This document shows, piece after piece, positions 5,087 through 15,538 of a stretch of 64,000 nt of DNA. Every line of letters begins with the position of its first letter. Position 1 is the first letter of the stretch. Source of the stretch: a virus; IMG/VR virus record IMGVR_UViG_3300033145_002224, positions 1 to 64,000 of that record. One strand, 5' to 3'. The translations under genes and the position numbers were made by a program. The notes below the pieces were generated by a model. That model worked only from the letters and a program-made list of their open reading frames with translations, had not been told where the DNA came from and made no database searches.

Positions 5087-5190
5087 TAAAAATCAGCAAA
5101 TATTATACAAGAAGCAAATAATGCAGCTATAAAATAAAACATTGCCAATATATAATCGAACTCTTTAATAAAAGTAATTATTTTTTTCAT
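5086..5190 (-). CDS. 34-residue membrane microprotein
   Basis: ATG at 5190 overlaps the TGA of the RlpA-like gene as ATGA, and the frame runs to TAG at 5086-5088, whose final G is the first base of the tRNA. The product has a basic start and one hydrophobic helix (residues 14-32). The translational coupling and membrane character argue that it is real. Its function is unknown; a holin-like or accessory role next to the RlpA-like protein is speculation. Confidence 0.5.
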   Translation of the reverse strand: MKKIITFIKEFDYILAMFYFIAALFASCIIFADF

Positions 5191-5678
5191 AACTGTTCTA
5201 CGGTTACATTTTTAAGCACACCCAGCCTTAAATCAGCGATTGCAGAAAACGAGGCACTAGATAAATCTATAATTCTTTCTGGAAAAATATCAAAAGATGG
5301 TCCAAAATCAGTTATTTTGCATTCAACAGTTTTGCCGTTGTCTAGGTTAGTGACAAGGACATATGAATATCTCTCAAAATCCCTGGTAGCACAAACATAA
5401 TGTCCTACAGAACTCCAGCCAGAATTCAATACATAATCATAATAACTGGCCTCTCCGGCTAATTTTAGTGGAATACTCTCCATTTCTTCGATTTCTTCTT
5501 CGGGTACAATTTCATCCACAGAACGATTTTGCACCTTTTCTATCTCCATTGGATACATCGCCTCCATCTCTGACTTAAAATTTGTATTAAAGATAAACAA
5601 CACTCCAAGCACTAATATTATCATAGAAGATAAAACTATCAGGCCAGAAGCAACGTACTCTTTTTTATTTTTGTACAT
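5187..5678 (-). CDS. RlpA-like double-psi beta-barrel protein, membrane-anchored
   Basis: A 163-residue protein. Residues 12-30 are a transmembrane anchor, followed by an acidic linker and, from residue 75, a GEASYYDY..GWSSVG start typical of RlpA/3D/expansin-like double-psi beta-barrels. It continues with VECKITDFGPS (catalytic-Asp region of the barrel) and IIDLSSASFSAI, the usual RlpA ending. RlpA proteins act on peptidoglycan in the envelope. It is coupled by ATGA to the microprotein at 5086. A wall-remodelling or lysis role is likely. Confidence 0.75.
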   Translation of the reverse strand: MYKNKKEYVASGLIVLSSMIILVLGVLFIFNTNFKSEMEAMYPMEIEKVQNRSVDEIVPEEEIEEMESIPLKLAGEASYYDYVLNSGWSSVGHYVCATRDFERYSYVLVTNLDNGKTVECKITDFGPSFDIFPERIIDLSSASFSAIADLRLGVLKNVTVEQL

Positions 5679-6790: not shown

Positions 6791-7294
6791 TTATAAATTT
6801 ATAAACCTTTCTAATAGTACTGGTTCATAATTTAAATTTTCCAGAACGAAACACTTGTGCTTTTCAGTTAAACGTCTCTTAAGATATGGCTCCTGATTTT
6901 TAATATCACCATTATGAAAATGCCCGAATACATTATAATCATAATTACCATTATCTTGTGGAGTATGAGAAAATAAAATCCTTTTACCAAAATAAGTATC
7001 AGTAAATTCTCTTGCTATAAAATCCCAGCCATGACTTAAATAAAAATTATTCGACTTATGATCATGATTTCCCCGGACAAGCCACTTCTTGCACGGTAAC
7101 GGGAGAATATACTTATTGTGTAACTTTTCACTATCTCCAATACAAACATCTCCAAGGTTGATTAATAAATCATCATGCTTAAGTAACCTTAAACAATTTT
7201 TTAAGATCAACTCATCAAAATTTTCTGGACGCCCACAATACTCCAACATTTTTGAATGTCCATGATGGTTGTCGCTAATTATAAAAACTCTCAT
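6791..7294 (-). CDS. Calcineurin-like metallophosphoesterase
   Basis: A 167-residue protein with the full order of metallophosphoesterase motifs: SDNHHGH near the N-terminus (D-x-H), NLGDV (GD), RGNHDHK (GNHD), FSHTP and FGHFH (GHxH) near the C-terminus. These residues bind two metal ions and hydrolyse phosphomono- or diesters. The single compact domain matches small phage phosphoesterases; the substrate is unknown. Its ATG overlaps the upstream 57-residue gene as ATGA, so both are read from the promoter at 7514-7542. Confidence 0.8.
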   Translation of the reverse strand: MRVFIISDNHHGHSKMLEYCGRPENFDELILKNCLRLLKHDDLLINLGDVCIGDSEKLHNKYILPLPCKKWLVRGNHDHKSNNFYLSHGWDFIAREFTDTYFGKRILFSHTPQDNGNYDYNVFGHFHNGDIKNQEPYLKRRLTEKHKCFVLENLNYEPVLLERFINL

Positions 7295-7588: not shown

Positions 7589-8176
7589 TTATACTACTAT
7601 CATATATGTTTTCAAGTCAAATATGATTTTTTCTGGTACTTTTTCTTTTTTAATCAATTTCTTAACCAAACTGCCTATAATTCCACCTATAACAGATGTA
7701 TTATAAACAATAGACCGAGCTGTGCATGGATCTCTATCAACACGATCGGGGGATGTCAGCGTTTTTCTCCACTCATCATTATTCTTACAAATATATAATT
7801 CCATTTGCTCAAGACCCATCCTGGCATCTATCACATAATCAAAACTAGAATTATTATTAGCTAAACGAATACGTTCTTTCATGCTATCTACCGCTATTAT
7901 TAAAATACTGGTAGTTGTTTTGTTAAATTGCTCATTTACATAATTTATCGTCTCACCCGTGAATTCTTTGATTGCCTTCGTGAGTGCTGTAACCTTTGCC
8001 TGGCCTGGCGAATTTTGTAAGAAGAACTGGGAAGGGAGATTGTGGGGTTCAACTCTGTCAGAGTCGTAAACGGTAAGTCGTTTAACTCCGAGCTTGGCAA
8101 GAATCGCGGCTGTCCATGAACCAATGCCTCCGGCCCCAACAATGATGATTGGTGTATTCTCTGTCTCTTCTGGCAT
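7589..8176 (-). CDS. ThiF/E1-like ubiquitin-activating (adenylyltransferase) protein
   Basis: A 195-residue E1/ThiF-superfamily Rossmann protein. Residues 10-20 read IIIVGAGGIGS, the ATP-binding glycine loop. DSDRVEPHNLPSQFF follows, the acidic adenine site plus the Asn-Leu..Gln element; the usual Arg of NLxRQ is Ser here, as in many JAB-linked E1s. DPCTARS offers a catalytic cysteine near the end. Known family members adenylate the C-terminal Gly of a ubiquitin-like protein and pass it to Cys. The start at 8176 is chosen for a strong AGGAGG eight bases upstream; an in-frame ATG at 8215 exists. It is the last gene of the Ubl, E2-like, JAB, E1 series. Confidence 0.85.
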   Translation of the reverse strand: MPEETENTPIIIVGAGGIGSWTAAILAKLGVKRLTVYDSDRVEPHNLPSQFFLQNSPGQAKVTALTKAIKEFTGETINYVNEQFNKTTTSILIIAVDSMKERIRLANNNSSFDYVIDARMGLEQMELYICKNNDEWRKTLTSPDRVDRDPCTARSIVYNTSVIGGIIGSLVKKLIKKEKVPEKIIFDLKTYMIVV

Positions 8177-8736
8177 GAGAACGTCCTCCTGCCTAATATA
8201 GTTTGTCTTGGACATAAATCTAATACTTTATTTTTTACATCTTTTTTACATTTATTAAATATATTTAAATCAAAATTTTTACCACCTTGCAAATTTCCTA
8301 TTTTTATATCTTCTGCAACGACCCTAACCGGCTTAAAAACATCAAGTCTACATAAATAATCACCTCGTTTATTAATCACTAATGAAAAACCATATCCGCC
8401 AGAAGAAAATTGTTCTATTTCATGTATATCAGTAGGTGACCAAAATACACTCATATTAGCATGGCTGTGCCACCACATACACATATCCTTTAGTCTTGGT
8501 GAATCATTCTTTATAAAATCTGTCACCTCCTCGGCGAGTGCCTCTTCTATTAATTTTGTCCTTAGAGGTGAACATATCTGATCATAAATACGAATATCAT
8601 AACAATATAAAACATTATGATTGGTTGGATGCTGTTTTAAAAATCCCATCCCAGAAATCTCATTATCCGCAAAATGGACATAATTTTTGAGCTTAAGATA
8701 TGCCTCTTTACTAAATATTATTTTCATTTTCTCCAT
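7945..8736 (-). CDS. JAB/JAMM (MPN) metalloprotease, deubiquitinase-like
   Basis: Residues 1-165 form a Prok-JAB domain: Glu26 in an NEISGMG context, then His90-Ser-His92 with Ser100 and Asp103 (HxH-x7-S-x2-D), the complete zinc-binding JAMM signature. In the family this site removes ubiquitin-like tags or trims their precursors. The frame stays open for another 89 codons that overlap the E1-like gene out of frame. That tail is Ser/Arg/Gln-rich without domain character, so the functional protein may be the N-terminal 170 residues plus an incidental tail. It overlaps the E2-like gene by 26 bases. Confidence 0.85.
   Translation of the reverse strand: MEKMKIIFSKEAYLKLKNYVHFADNEISGMGFLKQHPTNHNVLYCYDIRIYDQICSPLRTKLIEEALAEEVTDFIKNDSPRLKDMCMWWHSHANMSVFWSPTDIHEIEQFSSGGYGFSLVINKRGDYLCRLDVFKPVRVVAEDIKIGNLQGGKNFDLNIFNKCKKDVKNKVLDLCPRQTILGRRTFSCQKRQRIHQSSLLGPEALVHGQPRFLPSSELNDLPFTTLTELNPTISLPSSSYKIRQARQRLQHSRRQSKNSRVRR
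8185..8190 (-). promoter_or_regulatory. Strong ribosome binding site for the E1-like gene
   Basis: AGGAGG lies 8 bases before the ATG at 8176. Strong Shine-Dalgarno sequences are rare in this genome, so this one decides the start and implies independent, efficient initiation inside the overlapping JAB reading frame. Confidence 0.65.
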
Positions 8737-10534
8737 TTACTTGATTATGAGGTGATCGAAGGGCTACTTGTACCGCTTGTTCTGATGTGCCACTATCCGA
8801 TTGGGCTCGTGGTATATCTTGATCTACTTGTTCTCTCCGCGCTTGTTCAACAGATTCCATAAGATCACGCCTACTCCGTTCATGTATATCTGGAGCAATC
8901 GCACGTTCTTGTATTTGTGCACGAAAACTTGTCTCAGCACGAAGCGTTTCCATTACACTACCCATTAATTCTTCACCAGCCCCATTCATAAAATTATGCC
9001 AATCACTAGAATATTCATTAGTATTCTGAGGTATAGCTCCACTCCAAGGACGCCTAATACTATGACCACTACTATTAATCAATGTAACAATTACCCTCTC
9101 CACTATTTCAACAACACTATTTCCATAAGATTCAAAATTTATATCACTTATGTGACGCGGTGAATTATCACTATGTAATATTTCAGAAGAAATAGCCCTA
9201 CTAATAAATCTATCAAGTTGTTCATGTAAACATCTACCAAATAAATGCGGGTTATTTCTAAACTCTAAATTCTCTGTAAGTGCAGATATAATACTTCCCT
9301 CTACTCTACCTAAAATTCTAAAAGCTACTCCGCCTGGATAAGCAATATTATAACCAGATTGTCGTGCCCCAGGCCTGATTGAATAATCTGCTGTAAACTC
9401 AGAAGCTACAGTATTGAGCTCTTCTGCAATTCTCGTATATTCTTTCTTAAAAGAACCCAACTCTTTCTTTCGTTTTTTCTTCATAGAGGCTACTCCAACC
9501 TCATCAAAAAACTTACTACTCTCAGACACAACAATAGCAGCTAAATGATTATCATTTAATATCTTTTTAATTTTAACCCGCTTTGCCTTTTTACACCACT
9601 CTTTCCAATGACAGTATGGATTCTTAACGGCCGGACTAGTTAAGTGTATCATCACAGCGGTTATAAACATCTCTAAACTACCCTCTGTGACCGCTTTTTT
9701 AACATCTTTCTGATATTCTCCTAAACAAACATTTCCTGGTTGTATACAATAATGTTCAAGATTATTGTATCTTTTATCTAGGTTAATTATTTTAATACCC
9801 AATTTTCCATTTTCATCATACCATGAAAGCCTAATTAAAAATCTACCGAGCCGATATCTTTCTACATATAAAGTATTAGTTAAAATATAAAGACCAAACT
9901 TATCTTCTTTAATGCGTCCCACCTTATTTATATCTGGATGGTGTGAAATAAAAGAAGTTAAATCATAAAGCTCAGTACCTTTCTCTAGGGCATCACGACG
10001 CTCTTTAATATTTTTCTCACATGATTTTATTAATTTTCCAATTTTATAAAACTCTGATTTATCCATTTTCAACATTGAGTCAGCCGCCTTCATCACATCT
10101 TTTTCAGCTTTACCATCAAAGTATTTCTTGGACTTATTCTTAATTAAATCCATCACATCTTTCTTCAGCATGTAATCAACCGCCTGGGCTTTAATAGTTT
10201 TTTCGCGTACCCTTATAAAAGATTCTAGCCAATCTTTAATCCCAACTATATTACTATCTATATCATTTATGGTAATTTTTTTAAGTTTTTCCAATAATTT
10301 TCCTCCATATACTTTTGCCCTTTTTGAAAATGTAGGCTCTTTTCTTACCTCTTCACATGTCAATCTATCTGGCGCGGTAGCTCCCCTTCGTACTACATCG
10401 ACAGCATCACTCACTGTGAGGGTTGGAGTAGAACTAGCAGTTGTCGTCCACGTAGAAGTACCTGTAAAAAAATCATCATCATCCCTTATTGTATTATTCC
10501 TCGTTATGTTGTACCCAGGACTTTCTGTCATCAT
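8711..10534 (-). CDS. Large protein with E2 (UBC)-like conjugating domain
   Basis: A 607-residue protein. Residues 1-60 are Ser/Thr-rich and probably disordered; 75-200 are helical and Lys-rich. Residues about 210-310 resemble an E2 fold: beta strands (GLYILTNTLYVER, RFLIRLSWYD), then His261 nine residues before Cys270 in HYCIQPGNVCLG, like the HPN..G-x2-CL active site of UBC enzymes, followed by LEMFITAVMIHLTSP..NP, like the E2 helix ending LLxxPNxxxP. The C-terminal half is unassigned. The E2 call rests on motif spacing plus the neighbouring Ubl, JAB and E1 genes. Cys270 would carry the Ubl thioester. It could instead be an unrelated Cys protein. Confidence 0.65.
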   Translation of the reverse strand: MMTESPGYNITRNNTIRDDDDFFTGTSTWTTTASSTPTLTVSDAVDVVRRGATAPDRLTCEEVRKEPTFSKRAKVYGGKLLEKLKKITINDIDSNIVGIKDWLESFIRVREKTIKAQAVDYMLKKDVMDLIKNKSKKYFDGKAEKDVMKAADSMLKMDKSEFYKIGKLIKSCEKNIKERRDALEKGTELYDLTSFISHHPDINKVGRIKEDKFGLYILTNTLYVERYRLGRFLIRLSWYDENGKLGIKIINLDKRYNNLEHYCIQPGNVCLGEYQKDVKKAVTEGSLEMFITAVMIHLTSPAVKNPYCHWKEWCKKAKRVKIKKILNDNHLAAIVVSESSKFFDEVGVASMKKKRKKELGSFKKEYTRIAEELNTVASEFTADYSIRPGARQSGYNIAYPGGVAFRILGRVEGSIISALTENLEFRNNPHLFGRCLHEQLDRFISRAISSEILHSDNSPRHISDINFESYGNSVVEIVERVIVTLINSSGHSIRRPWSGAIPQNTNEYSSDWHNFMNGAGEELMGSVMETLRAETSFRAQIQERAIAPDIHERSRRDLMESVEQARREQVDQDIPRAQSDSGTSEQAVQVALRSPHNQVNGENENNI

Positions 10535-10559
10535 GAAAAAATTAATAATAAATATGCTT

Positions 10560-10579
10560 GGGCAACCGTAAAGTTGCCC
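10560..10579 (-). other. Hairpin between Ubl and E2-like genes
   Basis: GGGCAAC pairs perfectly with GTTGCCC around a six-base loop in the 65-base gap between the two genes. There is no T-run directly after it, so it is more likely an RNA-stability or processing hairpin than a full terminator. It could raise the level of the small Ubl relative to the large E2-like protein. Confidence 0.5.
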
Positions 10580-10599
10580 TATGTATACTCACTATCTTG

Positions 10600-10863
10600 T
10601 TATCGCCCGCCCTCTTTAGCACCTACAATAGCAACGGCTGCACCTCTAGAAAGCTCTGTTTTAGAGAGCTTACCTTTGTCAATTTTTGTACCGTTTACAT
10701 AAACGCTTTCATTAGGCCCTACTTCAAAGTCGTTAACATCTAACAACTTATCAACAGTGGTGCCGGGCTTGACCTTGGCTGTTTCCATACCAGAGCCCAT
10801 GCGACCAATTTGCACATTAAAGCCACCAGAACCAGTAGCTTTATTTTTTCCGATTAAAGCCAT
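10600..10863 (-). CDS. ThiS/MoaD-like ubiquitin-like beta-grasp protein ending Gly-Gly-Arg
   Basis: An 87-residue protein with ThiS/MoaD/ubiquitin-like features: a VKPGTTVDKLL strand-helix, then ESVYVNGTKID and the final GAAVAIVGAKEGGR. This parallels the ThiS pattern of a V-NG strand, a charged stretch, G-D-VEIV and a terminal Gly-Gly. The Gly85-Gly86 pair is followed by one Arg, so a precursor needing trimming is plausible, and a JAMM protease is encoded two genes on. Known homologues are adenylated at the terminal Gly by E1/ThiF enzymes for conjugation or sulfur transfer. It is the third gene after recA in the same unit. Confidence 0.8.
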   Translation of the reverse strand: MALIGKNKATGSGGFNVQIGRMGSGMETAKVKPGTTVDKLLDVNDFEVGPNESVYVNGTKIDKGKLSKTELSRGAAVAIVGAKEGGR

Positions 10864-10874
10864 AAGATTCTAAA

Positions 10875-11174
10875 TTACTTTTTAGCACTTTTTTTCTTTT
10901 TAACCGAAGAACCATCTTCTTCCTCATCCTCTTCTTTCTTAATCTTGCGTAAGACCTCTAATAACTTCGGACGAACCGTAGTATAGAGTAACGCACTTAC
11001 AATTTCTTCACCTTCTTCGGTTAAATCTTCTAAGCAAAGACCATTTTCAAAACCAACTGAAGAATCTGGATCAACGATCCCATACTTCTCTAAAAGCTTC
11101 CGGTCTTTGTCTTTAAAAAACTTTTTGACCTTTTGCTTAATGGTTTCTTCTTTGTTTAGCACTTCATCTGCCAT
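10875..11174 (-). CDS. Hypothetical acidic/basic protein of the RecA-Ubl operon
   Basis: A 99-residue helical protein with a basic first half, a DLTEEGEEIVSALLYTT helix in the middle and a tail that is first acidic (EEDEEED) and then Lys-rich. No catalytic motif. It lies between the zinc-ribbon and Ubl genes with 11-base gaps, so it is very probably co-expressed with them. Substrate or adaptor of the Ubl system is possible but not shown. Confidence 0.6.
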   Translation of the reverse strand: MADEVLNKEETIKQKVKKFFKDKDRKLLEKYGIVDPDSSVGFENGLCLEDLTEEGEEIVSALLYTTVRPKLLEVLRKIKKEEDEEEDGSSVKKKKSAKK

Positions 11175-11183
11175 ATAATTTCT

Positions 11184-11591
11184 TTATATAATAATATTTG
11201 AATCACCAGGACGACTACTCCCCCGACCTTCGAGAGCGTCGACTATCTGGTTTCTTAATCTTTCGTATTTTTCTTTATGTTTGTCATCCATACCGGCGAT
11301 AGCGAAATTATTACCACACCTCTTGCATGACATTACAATCTCTGAGGGTGTAAATGGGTCACCATACTCATAAAGTGGAACAACATTAAAGTGTCCCTTC
11401 TCCTTGCACTTCTGACACTCTGTCTTTCTTGCCTCGTCCTTTGCCCAACTTATCATCCTTTTTGACATTTTTTCTAGTTTTTTTAACTGAGCTTCCATCA
11501 AGTTTGTTATAGATGGAGGTGTAGATTTTTGGGCTGTCTTTAAGGAATTTTTTAGTTTCTTCCCTGCCGACACCGAGCTTTTCTTCTTCAT
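11184..11591 (-). CDS. Zinc-ribbon protein overlapping recA
   Basis: A 135-residue protein with a Lys/Ser-rich start and a zinc ribbon of two Cys pairs, CQKC and CKRC, separated by about 30 residues, then a helical tail. The first ATG at 11591 gives a 206-base out-of-frame overlap with recA. Internal starts at 11498 or 11468 would shorten the overlap to 113 or 83 bases. A DNA- or RNA-binding accessory role is plausible given its position behind recA. Confidence 0.55.
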   Translation of the reverse strand: MKKKSSVSAGKKLKNSLKTAQKSTPPSITNLMEAQLKKLEKMSKRMISWAKDEARKTECQKCKEKGHFNVVPLYEYGDPFTPSEIVMSCKRCGNNFAIAGMDDKHKEKYERLRNQIVDALEGRGSSRPGDSNIII

Positions 11592-12468
11592 AATAATATG
11601 TATTACCTTTTTTATTAATTATTTTTCTATCTATTGCTGTATCCAGGGCATCTCCAACAGTATCAACTCCCTCTCTATAAATCAACTCAATATTAGCCTC
11701 TTTAAATGGAAGTCCAACTTTATTCTTAACACCAATAATTTTCATCCAATTACCGATCACATCTTCACCCTTTTTAATTTTCAAACCACGCTTCACCTCT
11801 AACCTAACTGATGCAAAAAATTTAAGAGAACGTCCGCCTGGGGTGGTTGTCTTAGCTCCCCAGAATACCCCGATCTTGTCCCTTAGTTGGTTGATAAAAA
11901 TAACAGCAGTATTCGTCCTTGATATTTCAGCTGCAAGCACCCTCATCATCTTACTCATTAACCTAGCCTGTAAAGCTATGTTTTCCTTTTCTATTTCACC
12001 ATCGATCTCTTTCTTGGGGACTAGGGCGGCTACTGAGTCAACAACAATTATGTCGATATTCCCGGTCTTAGCCATTTCACGGACAACATCCATACCTTCT
12101 TCACCATACATCGGTTGGGAAACATAAAGATCGTCCACATTTACACCTATATTTTTAGCATAATTCTTATCAAAAGCATGTTCTGCGTCAACCCACACGG
12201 CTCTTAGGCCCTGTTTCTGTGCCTGAGCGACTATAAATAAAGACATTGTGGATTTTCCCGATGATTCCAAACCAAATATTTCAATCATCCTCCCTCTTGG
12301 AAGTCCCCCACAACCAAATATTCTATCCAAACCAAAAGAGCCCGTAGGAATAGATTCACACTGAACCCCTTCGGCCTCTTTCATTATGACGACAGTATTG
12401 TCACCATATTTCTTATTTAAACTTTTCATAGCATCATTAATAGACGCCATTTTTTCATCTTTTTTCAT
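11386..12468 (-). CDS. recA: RecA-like recombinase
   Basis: A 360-residue RecA. Walker A is at residues 66-74 (GLESSGKST), followed by VWVDAEHAFD, the catalytic-Glu/Walker B region IDIIVVDSVAALVPK, the DNA-binding loops around MSKMMRVLA..FINQLRDKIGV and the TTTPGG loop 2 motif. The C-terminal KNKVGLPFKEA and GEDVIGNW segments are typical. It forms ATP-dependent filaments on ssDNA for strand exchange. The last 50 residues are Lys-rich and overlap the next gene. It begins a few bases after the predicted start of transcription from 12477-12505, so the mRNA may be nearly leaderless; Met7 is an alternative start. Confidence 0.93.
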   Translation of the reverse strand: MKKDEKMASINDAMKSLNKKYGDNTVVIMKEAEGVQCESIPTGSFGLDRIFGCGGLPRGRMIEIFGLESSGKSTMSLFIVAQAQKQGLRAVWVDAEHAFDKNYAKNIGVNVDDLYVSQPMYGEEGMDVVREMAKTGNIDIIVVDSVAALVPKKEIDGEIEKENIALQARLMSKMMRVLAAEISRTNTAVIFINQLRDKIGVFWGAKTTTPGGRSLKFFASVRLEVKRGLKIKKGEDVIGNWMKIIGVKNKVGLPFKEANIELIYREGVDTVGDALDTAIDRKIINKKGNTYYYEEEKLGVGREETKKFLKDSPKIYTSIYNKLDGSSVKKTRKNVKKDDKLGKGRGKKDRVSEVQGEGTL

Positions 12469-12983: not shown

Positions 12984-13598
12984 TTAAAACCGCTTCAGAT
13001 AGGCTATTGCGTCGGGAAAATTCAAATTATTCTTCTTCATTATAAAATCAACTGCATTTGATCCATGTGCCATGCACCCAAAACAATGCCAAGTATTCTC
13101 TGGAAAAATAAAAAAGGAACCATCCTTCTCTTTGTGAAACGGACAAAGCATACGCTTACGTCCTTTACCTACATTAAAAACCTGACCGGCTATTAACTTC
13201 TCAACTGGAACATTTCTAGCTAACTCAATTTCATTTTTGCTATATTGCCCCTCCGTTTGTTTGTCTGTGTTAACAATACCATACTCCATATAAAGACGTT
13301 TATATTTATTTTTGATTTCCTTTAACTCTTTTCCTAATATAAAAAATTCTCCATGTTTCTTTTTTAATGCCAGCAACCTTTCTAATTTTGTTCTTAGAGG
13401 TGATATAACACCACGCAAATATCTTATCCGAGACTCCCTAATAAAATCATCACCCATTTCATCTTTAAATTCAAATATTCTTTTATCATTTTCAAATTGA
13501 ATCACCCTATAATAATAATCTTTTTCCTCACCGCAATTAATCATTTCAAAATACAATTCATCTATCTTTCTCTTCGTCTTTTTTCTCTCTGACTTCAT
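12984..13598 (-). CDS. CHC2 zinc-finger, DnaG primase N-terminal-like protein
   Basis: A 204-residue protein. Residues 1-110 are charged and helical. Residues about 145-204 are a CHC2 zinc-binding domain like that of DnaG: MLCPFHKEKDGSFFIFPE, WHCFGCMAHG with CPFH..CFGC ligands, then DAIAYLKRF. No Toprim catalytic domain follows, so it is either a primase template-recognition subunit or a reduced phage primase. It overlaps the upstream DnaB-like gene by 41 bases, matching a replisome operon. Confidence 0.75.
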   Translation of the reverse strand: MKSERKKTKRKIDELYFEMINCGEEKDYYYRVIQFENDKRIFEFKDEMGDDFIRESRIRYLRGVISPLRTKLERLLALKKKHGEFFILGKELKEIKNKYKRLYMEYGIVNTDKQTEGQYSKNEIELARNVPVEKLIAGQVFNVGKGRKRMLCPFHKEKDGSFFIFPENTWHCFGCMAHGSNAVDFIMKKNNLNFPDAIAYLKRF

Positions 13599-14679
13599 TT
13601 ATTTTGTCTTTAGCATCTGTTAAATATAAAAGCTGTTCGTATTCTTCATATGGGTAAAATCTATTTTTCCAAAATCCAAGAGGCATTCGTCTAGTTAAAC
13701 CATTCCTACGATTAGCTTCTAGGGATAACCACGAATAATCATGGTAAACAATAGATCTATCATCTTTGGGAATTGATAAATCCTTTTTTCCACCCCTACT
13801 AGTTTCTTTTTTTGCGCGTTGCCTCCAAATTAAAAAGGTAAAATCTGACTCTTGAGTGATGAAGCTCGAATCGCGAACCGAGTTAAGGTCCGGTTCATCC
13901 TGTGTATCCATTTTTTTGGTATGGGCGACAAGAAATATTGGAATATTTCTTTTTACTGCTATCTTTTTTAGTTCCCTAACTATTCCACCAACAAGAAACG
14001 AAACATTCTGATTGAAATCTTTTAATGGTAAAAGAAAATGTAAATGATCTATGTATATGCATGAAATATGATTTTCTTTTTGAGCTTTCTTAATCTGGGA
14101 ATCTAACCAACTAAGAGACAAACTTGAATTATCTATTGGCATGAATATTGGCAAGTCAGAGGTGGTAAATTTACTGCCTTCGCCCTCATCTATTTCTCTA
14201 AACTTTTTTATCAGCTCCTGCCAACTCATCTCTAATGTAAACCAAAGTGCTGGAAAATTATTTTTACCCTGAAGATATGAAAGTGTCTGGCATAGCGAGG
14301 TTTTTCCTTGTTTTGTTATCCCAGAAATAATAATAAGCTCTCCTCCCTGGAAACCACCGTCAACTAAATCATCAATTGGCTGAAAAAAGGTTGGGATTTT
14401 TGCTTTATCACCTTGTTCGTCAAGCTTTTTAAGTAACTCCTGATAACAATATAATTTATTATCTACAAACGGTGCGCTTACATCAGCTAATTGTTTAGCA
14501 CTTAAACCATCTGGAGGTGGTAAATCTTCAATCGACACATTATCATAATTTTTCGGCTCTGTCGCCATTAATAGCCTAGCCAGCTTCTTTTTTTCCTTTT
14601 CGTCTTCTGTGTCTGGGAAAATATCACTTGGAGTGATGTTCGGATCATTTTTAAGTTGTTTTAATGTTATTTTGGTCAT
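13558..14679 (-). CDS. DnaB-like replicative helicase
   Basis: A 373-residue RecA-fold ATPase. Walker A is GITKQGKTS near residue 120, after a GGFQGGELIIIS strand typical of DnaB/KaiC-type helicases. ALWFTLEM follows, then Walker B in SCIYIDHLHFL, IFLVAHTKK, and a late NRRNG-like segment. It lacks the long N-terminal DnaB domain. Between the initiator-like gene upstream (29-base overlap) and the CHC2 gene, it is the likely replication-fork helicase, moving on ssDNA with ATP hydrolysis. Confidence 0.8.
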   Translation of the reverse strand: MTKITLKQLKNDPNITPSDIFPDTEDEKEKKKLARLLMATEPKNYDNVSIEDLPPPDGLSAKQLADVSAPFVDNKLYCYQELLKKLDEQGDKAKIPTFFQPIDDLVDGGFQGGELIIISGITKQGKTSLCQTLSYLQGKNNFPALWFTLEMSWQELIKKFREIDEGEGSKFTTSDLPIFMPIDNSSLSLSWLDSQIKKAQKENHISCIYIDHLHFLLPLKDFNQNVSFLVGGIVRELKKIAVKRNIPIFLVAHTKKMDTQDEPDLNSVRDSSFITQESDFTFLIWRQRAKKETSRGGKKDLSIPKDDRSIVYHDYSWLSLEANRRNGLTRRMPLGFWKNRFYPYEEYEQLLYLTDAKDKINEVREKKDEEKDR

Positions 14680-15538
14680 TTATGTTTAATATTTTTTCAT
14701 ATCCAGAATATTCTTGTTCAAATTTACCTTTAAATTTATAAACAGTGGCTAAGTTATCAATAAATTCTGGATTTTCGTCTGGCCTCTTTTCACCATCGTA
14801 TTTTGCCATCATTTCTCCTGCAAAAATAAAAAGGTCTGTGTAATAATCATCTTCCCAGAGATGGTCTCCCAAAAGCTTGCCCTCTCTAATATTTCTACGC
14901 AAAATTGTATTAAATTCTTTTTGGGTAGCAAATTTCTCATTGAATTCTTTGGTGCGATAATTAAAAAATAGCCCCACTATTCTTTCCTGGCGCTTGTTAC
15001 TTTCCATTAACTTTTTTATGGCTCCAACATGAGAAAACTTTTTTTCTTCTTTTTTAGAAAGAGTTTTCGAGATTGAAGAATTGGTGTGTTGTGGAACCCC
15101 TTTTTTAGGGGGTCCACTAAATACATGTTTATTATTTGTATTATTATCTGGTATAGGTTGGGTATCTTCACCCGTTCCATTGGGTGATTCTGCCCGATCA
15201 ATTGGTGGTGTTTGCACCCCTACATATATTGCAGAATACCACAATGTTCTATCATATTTAGATTTGTTATAATTGGCTGATTTTATGTATTTTTTATTTT
15301 TAAGATTTTTTAGAATACGCTTTATTTGGTCTTCTGTCCAAAACGGAAATAATTTACTAAAAGCTGTTTTTGAATTATATGTCCAATAACATCCACCATG
15401 TAAATGTTTATTATTAGCCTTATTTTTTTCACACCAGAATTCGATATTAGAGTACATTATAGCCTCTTCTACGCCTATATTTTTAGCAATTTCTGGGTCG
15501 AATTGCATTTTTATAACTGTTTTCATACTTTTTGTCAA
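14651..15538 (-). CDS. Replication initiator-like, winged-helix (DnaD-type) protein
   Basis: A 295-residue protein. Residues 20-110 look like the winged-helix domain of phage replication initiators/DnaD-like proteins (EAIMYSNIEFWCEKN, then WTYNSKTAFSKLFPFWTEDQIKRILKNL). A polar Pro/Asn/Thr linker follows, then a C-terminal helical domain. Such proteins bind the phage origin and load the helicase, here encoded immediately downstream with overlap. It is the first gene of the leftward replication operon; its leader contains the structured element at 15599-15703. Confidence 0.7.
   Translation of the reverse strand: MTKSMKTVIKMQFDPEIAKNIGVEEAIMYSNIEFWCEKNKANNKHLHGGCYWTYNSKTAFSKLFPFWTEDQIKRILKNLKNKKYIKSANYNKSKYDRTLWYSAIYVGVQTPPIDRAESPNGTGEDTQPIPDNNTNNKHVFSGPPKKGVPQHTNSSISKTLSKKEEKKFSHVGAIKKLMESNKRQERIVGLFFNYRTKEFNEKFATQKEFNTILRRNIREGKLLGDHLWEDDYYTDLFIFAGEMMAKYDGEKRPDENPEFIDNLATVYKFKGKFEQEYSGYEKILNINDQNNIKTT

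Follow-up and report, generated by a model that had tools for sequence, protein, structure and literature searches.

A phage gene cassette predicted to encode a ubiquitin-like conjugation cascade lies beside replication and recombination genes

Prokaryotic systems that combine a ubiquitin-like protein (Ubl), an activating enzyme (E1), a conjugating enzyme (E2) and a JAMM metallopeptidase are known in bacteria and archaea, and those bacterial ones that have been tested fight phages. In the bacterial ISG15-like (Bil) antiphage system, the genes BilA-B-C-D encode Ubl, E2, deubiquitinase and E1 in that order (PMC11354881), while the E2 of the "row 6d" operons lacks the classical His and carries a downstream His instead (Iyer et al. 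2006, PMC1779556). Here we describe a cassette in the first 64,000 nucleotides (hereafter the window) of IMGVR_UViG_3300033145_002224, a 101,437-bp virus contig. On its minus strand this phage carries a complete four-gene set, read 5' to 3' as Ubl, E2-like protein, JAB and E1, which is the order of Bil; a metallophosphoesterase gene follows, and genes for DNA copying and recombination lie alongside.

We propose that the cassette specifies a phage-encoded, reversible ubiquitin-like protein-conjugation cascade, a reading predicted from sequence and structural models to which we assign a probability of about 0.82, a figure that covers the cascade and not its target. Profiles, structure prediction, catalytic residues and synteny all agree with the original prediction that this phage replication operon holds a self-contained Ubl/E1/E2/JAB set, and its characterization of each product was borne out. 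The general features of Ubl conjugation are all present: a beta-grasp modifier with C-terminal Gly-Gly, a UBC-fold E2 with a catalytic Cys, a JAMM motif (E...HxH...SxxD) and an E1 adenylating domain with its catalytic residues.

The Ubl, described beforehand as a ThiS-like protein ending in Gly-Gly-Arg, terminates in ...AKEGGR and matches Pfam ThiS as one domain (residues 28-86; 24.3 bits vs. a cut-off of 22.5). A profile of 35 phage Ubls matches 1rws (7.3e-7) and SAMP2 (8.2e-7), as well as ThiS and TtuB, and an AlphaFold2 (AF2) model with a predicted local distance difference test score (pLDDT) of 82 gives the expected beta-grasp fold (beta-beta-alpha-beta-beta-beta), its top PDB matches being MoaD-type proteins and ubiquitin. 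Among relatives the tail after Gly-Gly varies (R, VL, C, K, QA or none), which fits a trimming role for JAB. The E1/ThiF assignment likewise stands, with a Pfam ThiF match at 2.7e-20 and a profile that matches UBA5 (1.4e-16), MccB, UBA1, MoeB, ThiF and Cap2; Asp51, Asp53, Asn59, Lys74, Asp110 and Arg115 are kept in 90/90 relatives, Arg8 in 89/90 and Cys164 in 88/90, and plasmid E1 matches are no closer than phage ones. All four JAMM residues proposed for JAB (His90, His92, Ser100 and Asp103) are in place and conserved in 95/95 relatives, and to these we add the glutamate Glu26 (94/95). Pfam scores for the window JAB fall below threshold, and a profile of 5 relatives matches an Rpn11-like protein at 1.8e-7 and Rpn11 at 4e-6.

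The E2-like open reading frame (ORF) of 607 aa contains E-HYCIQPGNVCLGEY, with His261 and Cys270 as predicted, and its UBC core spans approximately residues 185-320, preceded by a coiled coil. Its catalytic motif reads H-Y-C-I-Q-P-G-N-V-C-L-G, where the typical form is H-P-H-V...G-x-x-C-[LFW]-G. A hidden Markov model (HMM) built from 15 relatives, with the window excluded, picks the window ORF from among 5383 ORFs of the loci at 9.5e-17. When 21 phage E2 cores are combined into a profile, it matches human UBE2L3 (1.5e-5 to 2e-5) along the full length of the UBC domain, placing HPH...C on HPN...C and catalytic Cys on Cys. The AF2 model of residues 95-330 (pLDDT 84.4, predicted template modelling score 0.75) consists of two long helices, a short helix, an antiparallel beta-meander, the Cys loop and two helices, and all 50 listed PDB matches from Foldseek are E2-type structures (best probability 0.98), consistent with the UBC fold anticipated around Cys270. 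When the E2s of two relatives (L002 and L012) served as queries, they matched themselves only.

In a marine clade of relatives the E2 motif takes the form [HFY]-P-[YF]-[ILV]...C, in which Cys and Pro are invariant (28/28). The link of this clade to the E2 core rests on that motif together with an hhalign match at 2.4e-6, against a probability of at most 0.4% for seven control families; a profile of the full-length marine E2s (A7) matched no E2 in PDB, a failure that variable inserts separating HP from Cys probably explain. The original prediction regarded a large E2 fusion in a phage replication operon as new, and such a protein is indeed found there; it is not unique to the window phage, E2 proteins of ~200-660 aa filling the same slot in relatives. 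Could the E2-like protein nevertheless be a non-catalytic, RWD-like scaffold that performs no conjugation? Bacterial E2-fold proteins without the Cys have been described (Iyer et al. 2006, PMC1779556), but we consider this very improbable here, as the catalytic Cys is invariant both in the E2-core alignment (A5) and in the marine clade despite wide divergence elsewhere.

Further E2-related features were seen in individual relatives. A second E2-like domain lies just upstream of the cassette in L012 (3483-4463) and L017 (7043-7543), and a conserved Cys cluster (C...C.....C.GY-like) follows the UBC part, in the C-terminal third, in L048, L069, L067, L031 and other marine E2s, where it is possibly a Zn or Fe-S domain.

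Linkage of the four genes extends well beyond the window. A search with E1 returned one close contig, L002, with the order Ubl, E2-like, JAB, E1, in which Ubl and E2 are separated by a gene for a 654-aa protein and by smaller ORFs. An E1 alignment (A1) proved too weakly conserved for scanning the collection. JAB, the gene that opened the family, yielded an alignment with 187 relatives in viral contigs, of which we analyzed 80, and only 9 relatives outside them, all in contigs of metagenome-assembled genomes (MAGs) from a collection with one genome for each of 84,980 species. Because loci were picked by JAB alone, the gene content beside JAB constitutes independent evidence. E1 is present in 89/95 JAB loci (the 80 viral loci chosen by JAB similarity pooled with other loci, without dereplication, so that a few pairs are near-identical), and the order Ubl-E2-JAB-E1 recurs across dozens of viral contigs. 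Since 89/95 JAB loci have E1 and the window-free E2 model finds the window ORF, chance assembly of the gene set is excluded. The six JAB loci without E1 are L076 and L081, where JAB is the last gene on the stretch examined, and four MAG contigs of NC10/Methylomirabilota, three with an E2-like gene. We treat as an E2 candidate any ORF of 150 aa or longer whose end meets the start of JAB, and 84 loci have one; a regular expression finds a small ORF ending in Gly-Gly upstream in 57/84 of these, ~53 of them genuine once 4 were removed by eye as spurious. Two loci have two ThiF-like genes each, before Ubl and after JAB (L024 6494-10199; L041 6322-11102).

This gene content also bears on whether the cassette might be a sulfur-carrier pathway, in which a ThiS/MoaD-like protein, ThiF and JAB trimming would serve thiamine, molybdopterin or tRNA thiolation with no protein tagging. 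The best scores of Ubl and E1 in NCBIfam and Pfam are indeed to ThiS and ThiF, and the broader Pfam domains of both are recognized, but both proteins fall far under the NCBIfam cut-offs for the thiamine-biosynthesis families (ThiF 64.9 vs. 159 bits, ThiS 18.7 vs. 37.45). Moreover, an E2 with a conserved Cys lies between Ubl and JAB in most loci, and we know of no sulfur pathway that needs an E2. Inspection of loci by eye turned up neither a rhodanese or sulfurtransferase gene nor a target biosynthetic gene beside the cassette. We regard a sulfur carrier as quite unlikely.

Several observations weigh against a conjugation cascade. Single-sequence searches with the 607-aa protein gave no usable match in viral contigs, named phages, Pfam, PHROGs, PADLOC or NCBIfam, which we attribute to an E2 that diverges too fast for such searches. 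The Foldseek matches have modest E-values (1e-2) and TM-scores of ~0.5, and in the marine clade His is present in 20/28 E2s, leaving 8/28 with no His before Pro. Two records, which may be fragments, contain JAB, E1 and Ubl with no E2 found (L010 3280-5551; L011 8560-12537). Finally, we identified no substrate, E3 or reader for the cassette, and no RING E3 was found. In L010 and L011, the genes in between look, as read from sequence, like JAB-fold proteins that lack the JAMM motif.

Cultured and named phages share this arrangement. Related E1s occur in Flavobacterium Fpv phages, crAss-like phages and ~227-kb Xanthomonas/Erwinia phages, and the cassette gene order is shared by crAss001 (gp79-gp76), DAC15, Kolpuevirus 'frurule' and Flavobacterium Fpv (FpV4 examined). 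In these phages a Ubl-like protein gene is followed by one for a protein with H-S-H...C-x-G, then by JAB and ThiF. JAB and E1 are clear in these phages, and the E2 and Ubl identities are probable from position, motif and a weak profile match. Built from 4 sequences, a crAss E2 profile could not be tied to the E2 core (2%); built from 11, it aligned to that core with the His and Cys matched up (hhalign E 3.5e-4, probability 37%). The corresponding value for the crAss-type Ubl is E 1.3e-3 (probability 19%). Unlike the window Ubl, the crAss/Fpv type has a long C-terminal extension after S-G, and in the crAss phages the cassette adjoins primase. Existing labels for the cassette genes in these phages are hypothetical, metalloprotease and thiamine biosynthesis. 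In Xanthomonas phage PhiXhv-12 (L005 2778-6654), we observed an SGG-ending Ubl-like protein, an 892-aa protein that contains HGSLCLGSF and is Cys-rich at its ends, and then ThiF, beside topoisomerase genes and with no JAB recognized nearby.

What is known of these protein families lets us infer the chemistry and the sequence of its steps. E1, presumably a homodimer like MoeB and UBA5, would adenylate the exposed C-terminal glycine of Ubl, which would then pass, possibly via Cys164, to Cys270 of E2 for attachment to lysines. Given that there is no conserved fifth gene and that the E2 flanks are long and fast-evolving, E2 itself may select substrates, its coiled coil and flanks taking the place of a separate E3. 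The JAMM enzyme would first trim the residue after Gly-Gly (Arg in the window) and later remove the tag.

What the cascade might modify is suggested by its neighbors. A recombinase lies near the cassette in 47/80 evaluable loci. In the marine clade its distance from JAB is ~1.4-2 kb, and E1 is followed there by a gene for a Sak4-type AAA_24 protein (30 loci), ERF (15) or a Rad52-like protein (3); next come a protein resembling single-stranded DNA-binding protein (SSB) and then DnaB/primase; the Rad52-like and SSB-like assignments are our own reading, with no Pfam match. In the window the cassette is accompanied by RecA, DnaB and a primase zinc finger; downstream of the L012 cassette lies a gene for an SbcC-like protein; and in Steigviridae crAss phages primase precedes the cassette while uracil-DNA glycosylase, a resolvase and an exonuclease follow. 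The presence of unrelated recombinases in the same place argues for a link to recombination or replication, and this context favors such proteins over the tail, the other target considered in the original prediction. We therefore suggest, tentatively and at somewhat less than even odds, that the targets are phage replication or recombination proteins such as the recombinase or the ssDNA-binding protein, whose tagging would parallel, in a virus, the way SUMO and ubiquitin control PCNA, RPA or Rad52. A zinc-ribbon E3 partner, prompted by the window and L002, where such a protein is encoded close to Ubl, was considered and set aside: a small ORF with two CxxC motifs occurs within 2 kb upstream in 8/84 loci vs. 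38/602 background genes, which is not clearly enriched.

Early-gene clustering could produce the same neighborhood picture, and the same conjugation chemistry might instead act on host proteins, for early takeover or counter-defense, with the cassette near replication genes only via co-transcription. In its favor, replication modules are early modules. Fast evolution of the E2 flanks also resembles an arms race, residues 1-95 and 331-607 having no relatives among the 5383 ORFs, and bacterial relatives of the cassette work in phage-host conflict (CBASS, PMC10097602; Bil, PMC12135933). That the cassette so often closely adjoins SSB-like proteins and recombinases of unrelated families is nonetheless more specific than early placement would explain. 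We hold host targeting to be a serious possibility that falls short of an even chance, about as likely as the replication reading.

Alternatively, Ubl may mark proteins for unfolding or degradation by an AAA+ machine. A ClpC-like double AAA+ unfoldase is encoded 1-2 small genes downstream of a compact cassette in L020 and L021 (phage contigs of 152 and 178 kb), but these are two related contigs, the third match (L026) lies 7.9 kb off, and neither the marine relatives nor the surroundings of the window cassette showed a Clp gene. We consider a degradation tag unlikely. Returning to replication and recombination proteins as targets, we offer as a speculative generalization, with perhaps one chance in three, that a widespread class of tailed phages uses an E2 with built-in substrate-choosing flanks to tag these proteins reversibly, and that some tags may feed a ClpC-like unfoldase.

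In the window, the minus-strand order is DnaD-like, DnaB, primase-type zinc finger, a 77-aa ORF, RecA, zinc-ribbon protein, acidic 99-aa protein and then the cassette. Ubl and E2 are separated by 65 nt and the remaining cassette genes overlap, for which reason the cassette is likely one transcription unit, probably including the acidic protein. The JAB ORF shares 271 nt with the E1 ORF in a different frame (7945-8215), covering its C-terminal ~90 codons, compared with only 0-90 nt in relatives inspected; separately, the RecA 3' end overlaps the zinc-ribbon ORF by 206 nt (11386-11591). A promoter and terminator scan gave no decisive signal.

Table 1. Positions of the cassette genes, their key segments and neighboring genes (window coordinates unless a contig is named).
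Feature	Coordinates	Strand	Basis
Ubl, single beta-grasp modifier, 87 aa	10600..10863	-	Pfam ThiS, profile, AF2 model
E2-like (UBC) protein, 607 aa	8711..10534	-	HMM, profile to UBE2L3, AF2 model
Modelled part of E2, residues 95-330	9545..10252	-	AF2 model and E2-core alignment A5
Predicted E2 catalytic motif, His261-x8-Cys270	9725..9754	-	Codon 261 = 9754-9752, codon 270 = 9727-9725
JAB/JAMM metallopeptidase ORF, 263 aa	7945..8736	-	JAMM residues, profile to Rpn11
E1-like (ThiF/MoeB/UBA5 type) adenylating enzyme, 208 aa, single domain	7589..8215	-	Pfam ThiF, profile, residues
Acidic 99-aa protein directly upstream of Ubl	10875..11174	-	No family match (Pfam, PHROGs)
Zinc-ribbon-like protein, two CxxC	11184..11591	-	Overlaps RecA 3' end
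RecA recombinase directly upstream (context)	11386..12468	-	Pfam RecA 4.2e-101
DnaG-type zinc finger protein, DnaB helicase, DnaD-like/replication initiation protein (upstream context)	12984..15538	-	
Metallophosphoesterase downstream (context)	6791..7294	-	Pfam Metallophos_2 5.5e-7
ClpC-like AAA+ proteins	L020 10842-13373 (843 aa); L021 10458-12977 (839 aa)		

The window virus is very probably a tailed phage, because ORFs elsewhere in the record look, from their translations, like large terminase and portal protein genes and because PHROGs matches structural and replication genes. In the remainder of the phage genome we also noted likely homing endonucleases among structural genes (L103 8741-9526 and 10293-10994) and a 1272-aa protein interrupted by an intein-like insert (L104 1181-4999). 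Window GC content is 33.8%. Across positions 1-64000 a Shine-Dalgarno motif precedes 2/52 ORFs of at least 120 aa vs. 2.4 expected by shuffling; this absence of signal suggests a host with Shine-Dalgarno-independent initiation, such as Bacteroidota. An RlpA-like protein, as read from sequence, is encoded at 5187-5678, and others lie near the cassettes of L017 and L019.

We found no description of a phage Ubl-E2-JAB-E1 set in the open-access literature, subscription papers being mostly outside that coverage; Aravind-group surveys of E1/E2 families reportedly may mention phage operons. In the loci described here, phages own the complete set, inside the replication module and in many lineages. 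If our reading is correct, bacterial viruses would rely on post-translational tagging, either for running DNA replication or for overcoming the host, phages would form a reservoir of classical HP...C E2s with bearing on the origin of the eukaryotic system, and many phage genes labelled "thiamine biosynthesis" would need re-annotation. The cassette order in lab-grown crAss001, DAC15 and Fpv makes direct testing possible.

The original prediction likened the cassette to Bil, type II CBASS and PRTRC, a likeness that stands for function and gene content and fails for membership. Bil resembles the cassette in having separate Ubl, E2, JAB/JAMM and E1 genes, but BilA has two Ubl domains, whereas the window Ubl (87 aa) has one ThiS domain, and BilD combines two adenylation domains with a Cys domain, whereas the window E1 (208 aa) has a single ThiF domain. 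The BilB C-E-H-H motif (Cys, Glu at +6, His at +8, His at +13) lies after the Cys; the window E2 has Lys276, Val278 and Thr283 at those positions, and its His lies before the Cys. Also unlike Bil, the window set is phage-borne and beside replication genes. The row 6d/PRTRC operons (Iyer et al. 2006) likewise have separate Ubl, JAB, E1 and E2 genes, but the window falls well under the PRTRC cut-offs (PRTRC_ThiF 35.2 vs. 144.75 bits, PRTRC_A 12.2 vs. 101.8). Type II CBASS (Cap2/Cap3) and 6A-MBL share ubiquitin-like chemistry with E1, E2 and JAB activities, but fuse E2 to E1 and include a CD-NTase or MBL gene, whereas the window has separate genes and a free Ubl; the 6A-MBL cap2_3 model scores 57.2 vs. 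320 bits, and PADLOC E1-E2 models match the window around the E1 region only.

Archaeal (Caldiarchaeum) and eukaryotic ubiquitin systems resemble the cassette in their free Ubl, E1, UBC E2 with an HPN/HPH-like motif and Cys, and Rpn11-like JAMM enzyme, but differ from the window, where E1 is a minimal single-domain enzyme and a RING E3 was not found. The lambda/T1 tail assembly proteins I and K also place a phage Ubl near a JAB peptidase, but without E1 or E2 and among tail rather than replication genes. By the features tested, the cassette belongs to none of Bil, PRTRC, CBASS and 6A-MBL, and it therefore appears to be a distinct version of such systems: phage-owned, with a single Ubl, a classical HP...C E2 and a minimal E1.

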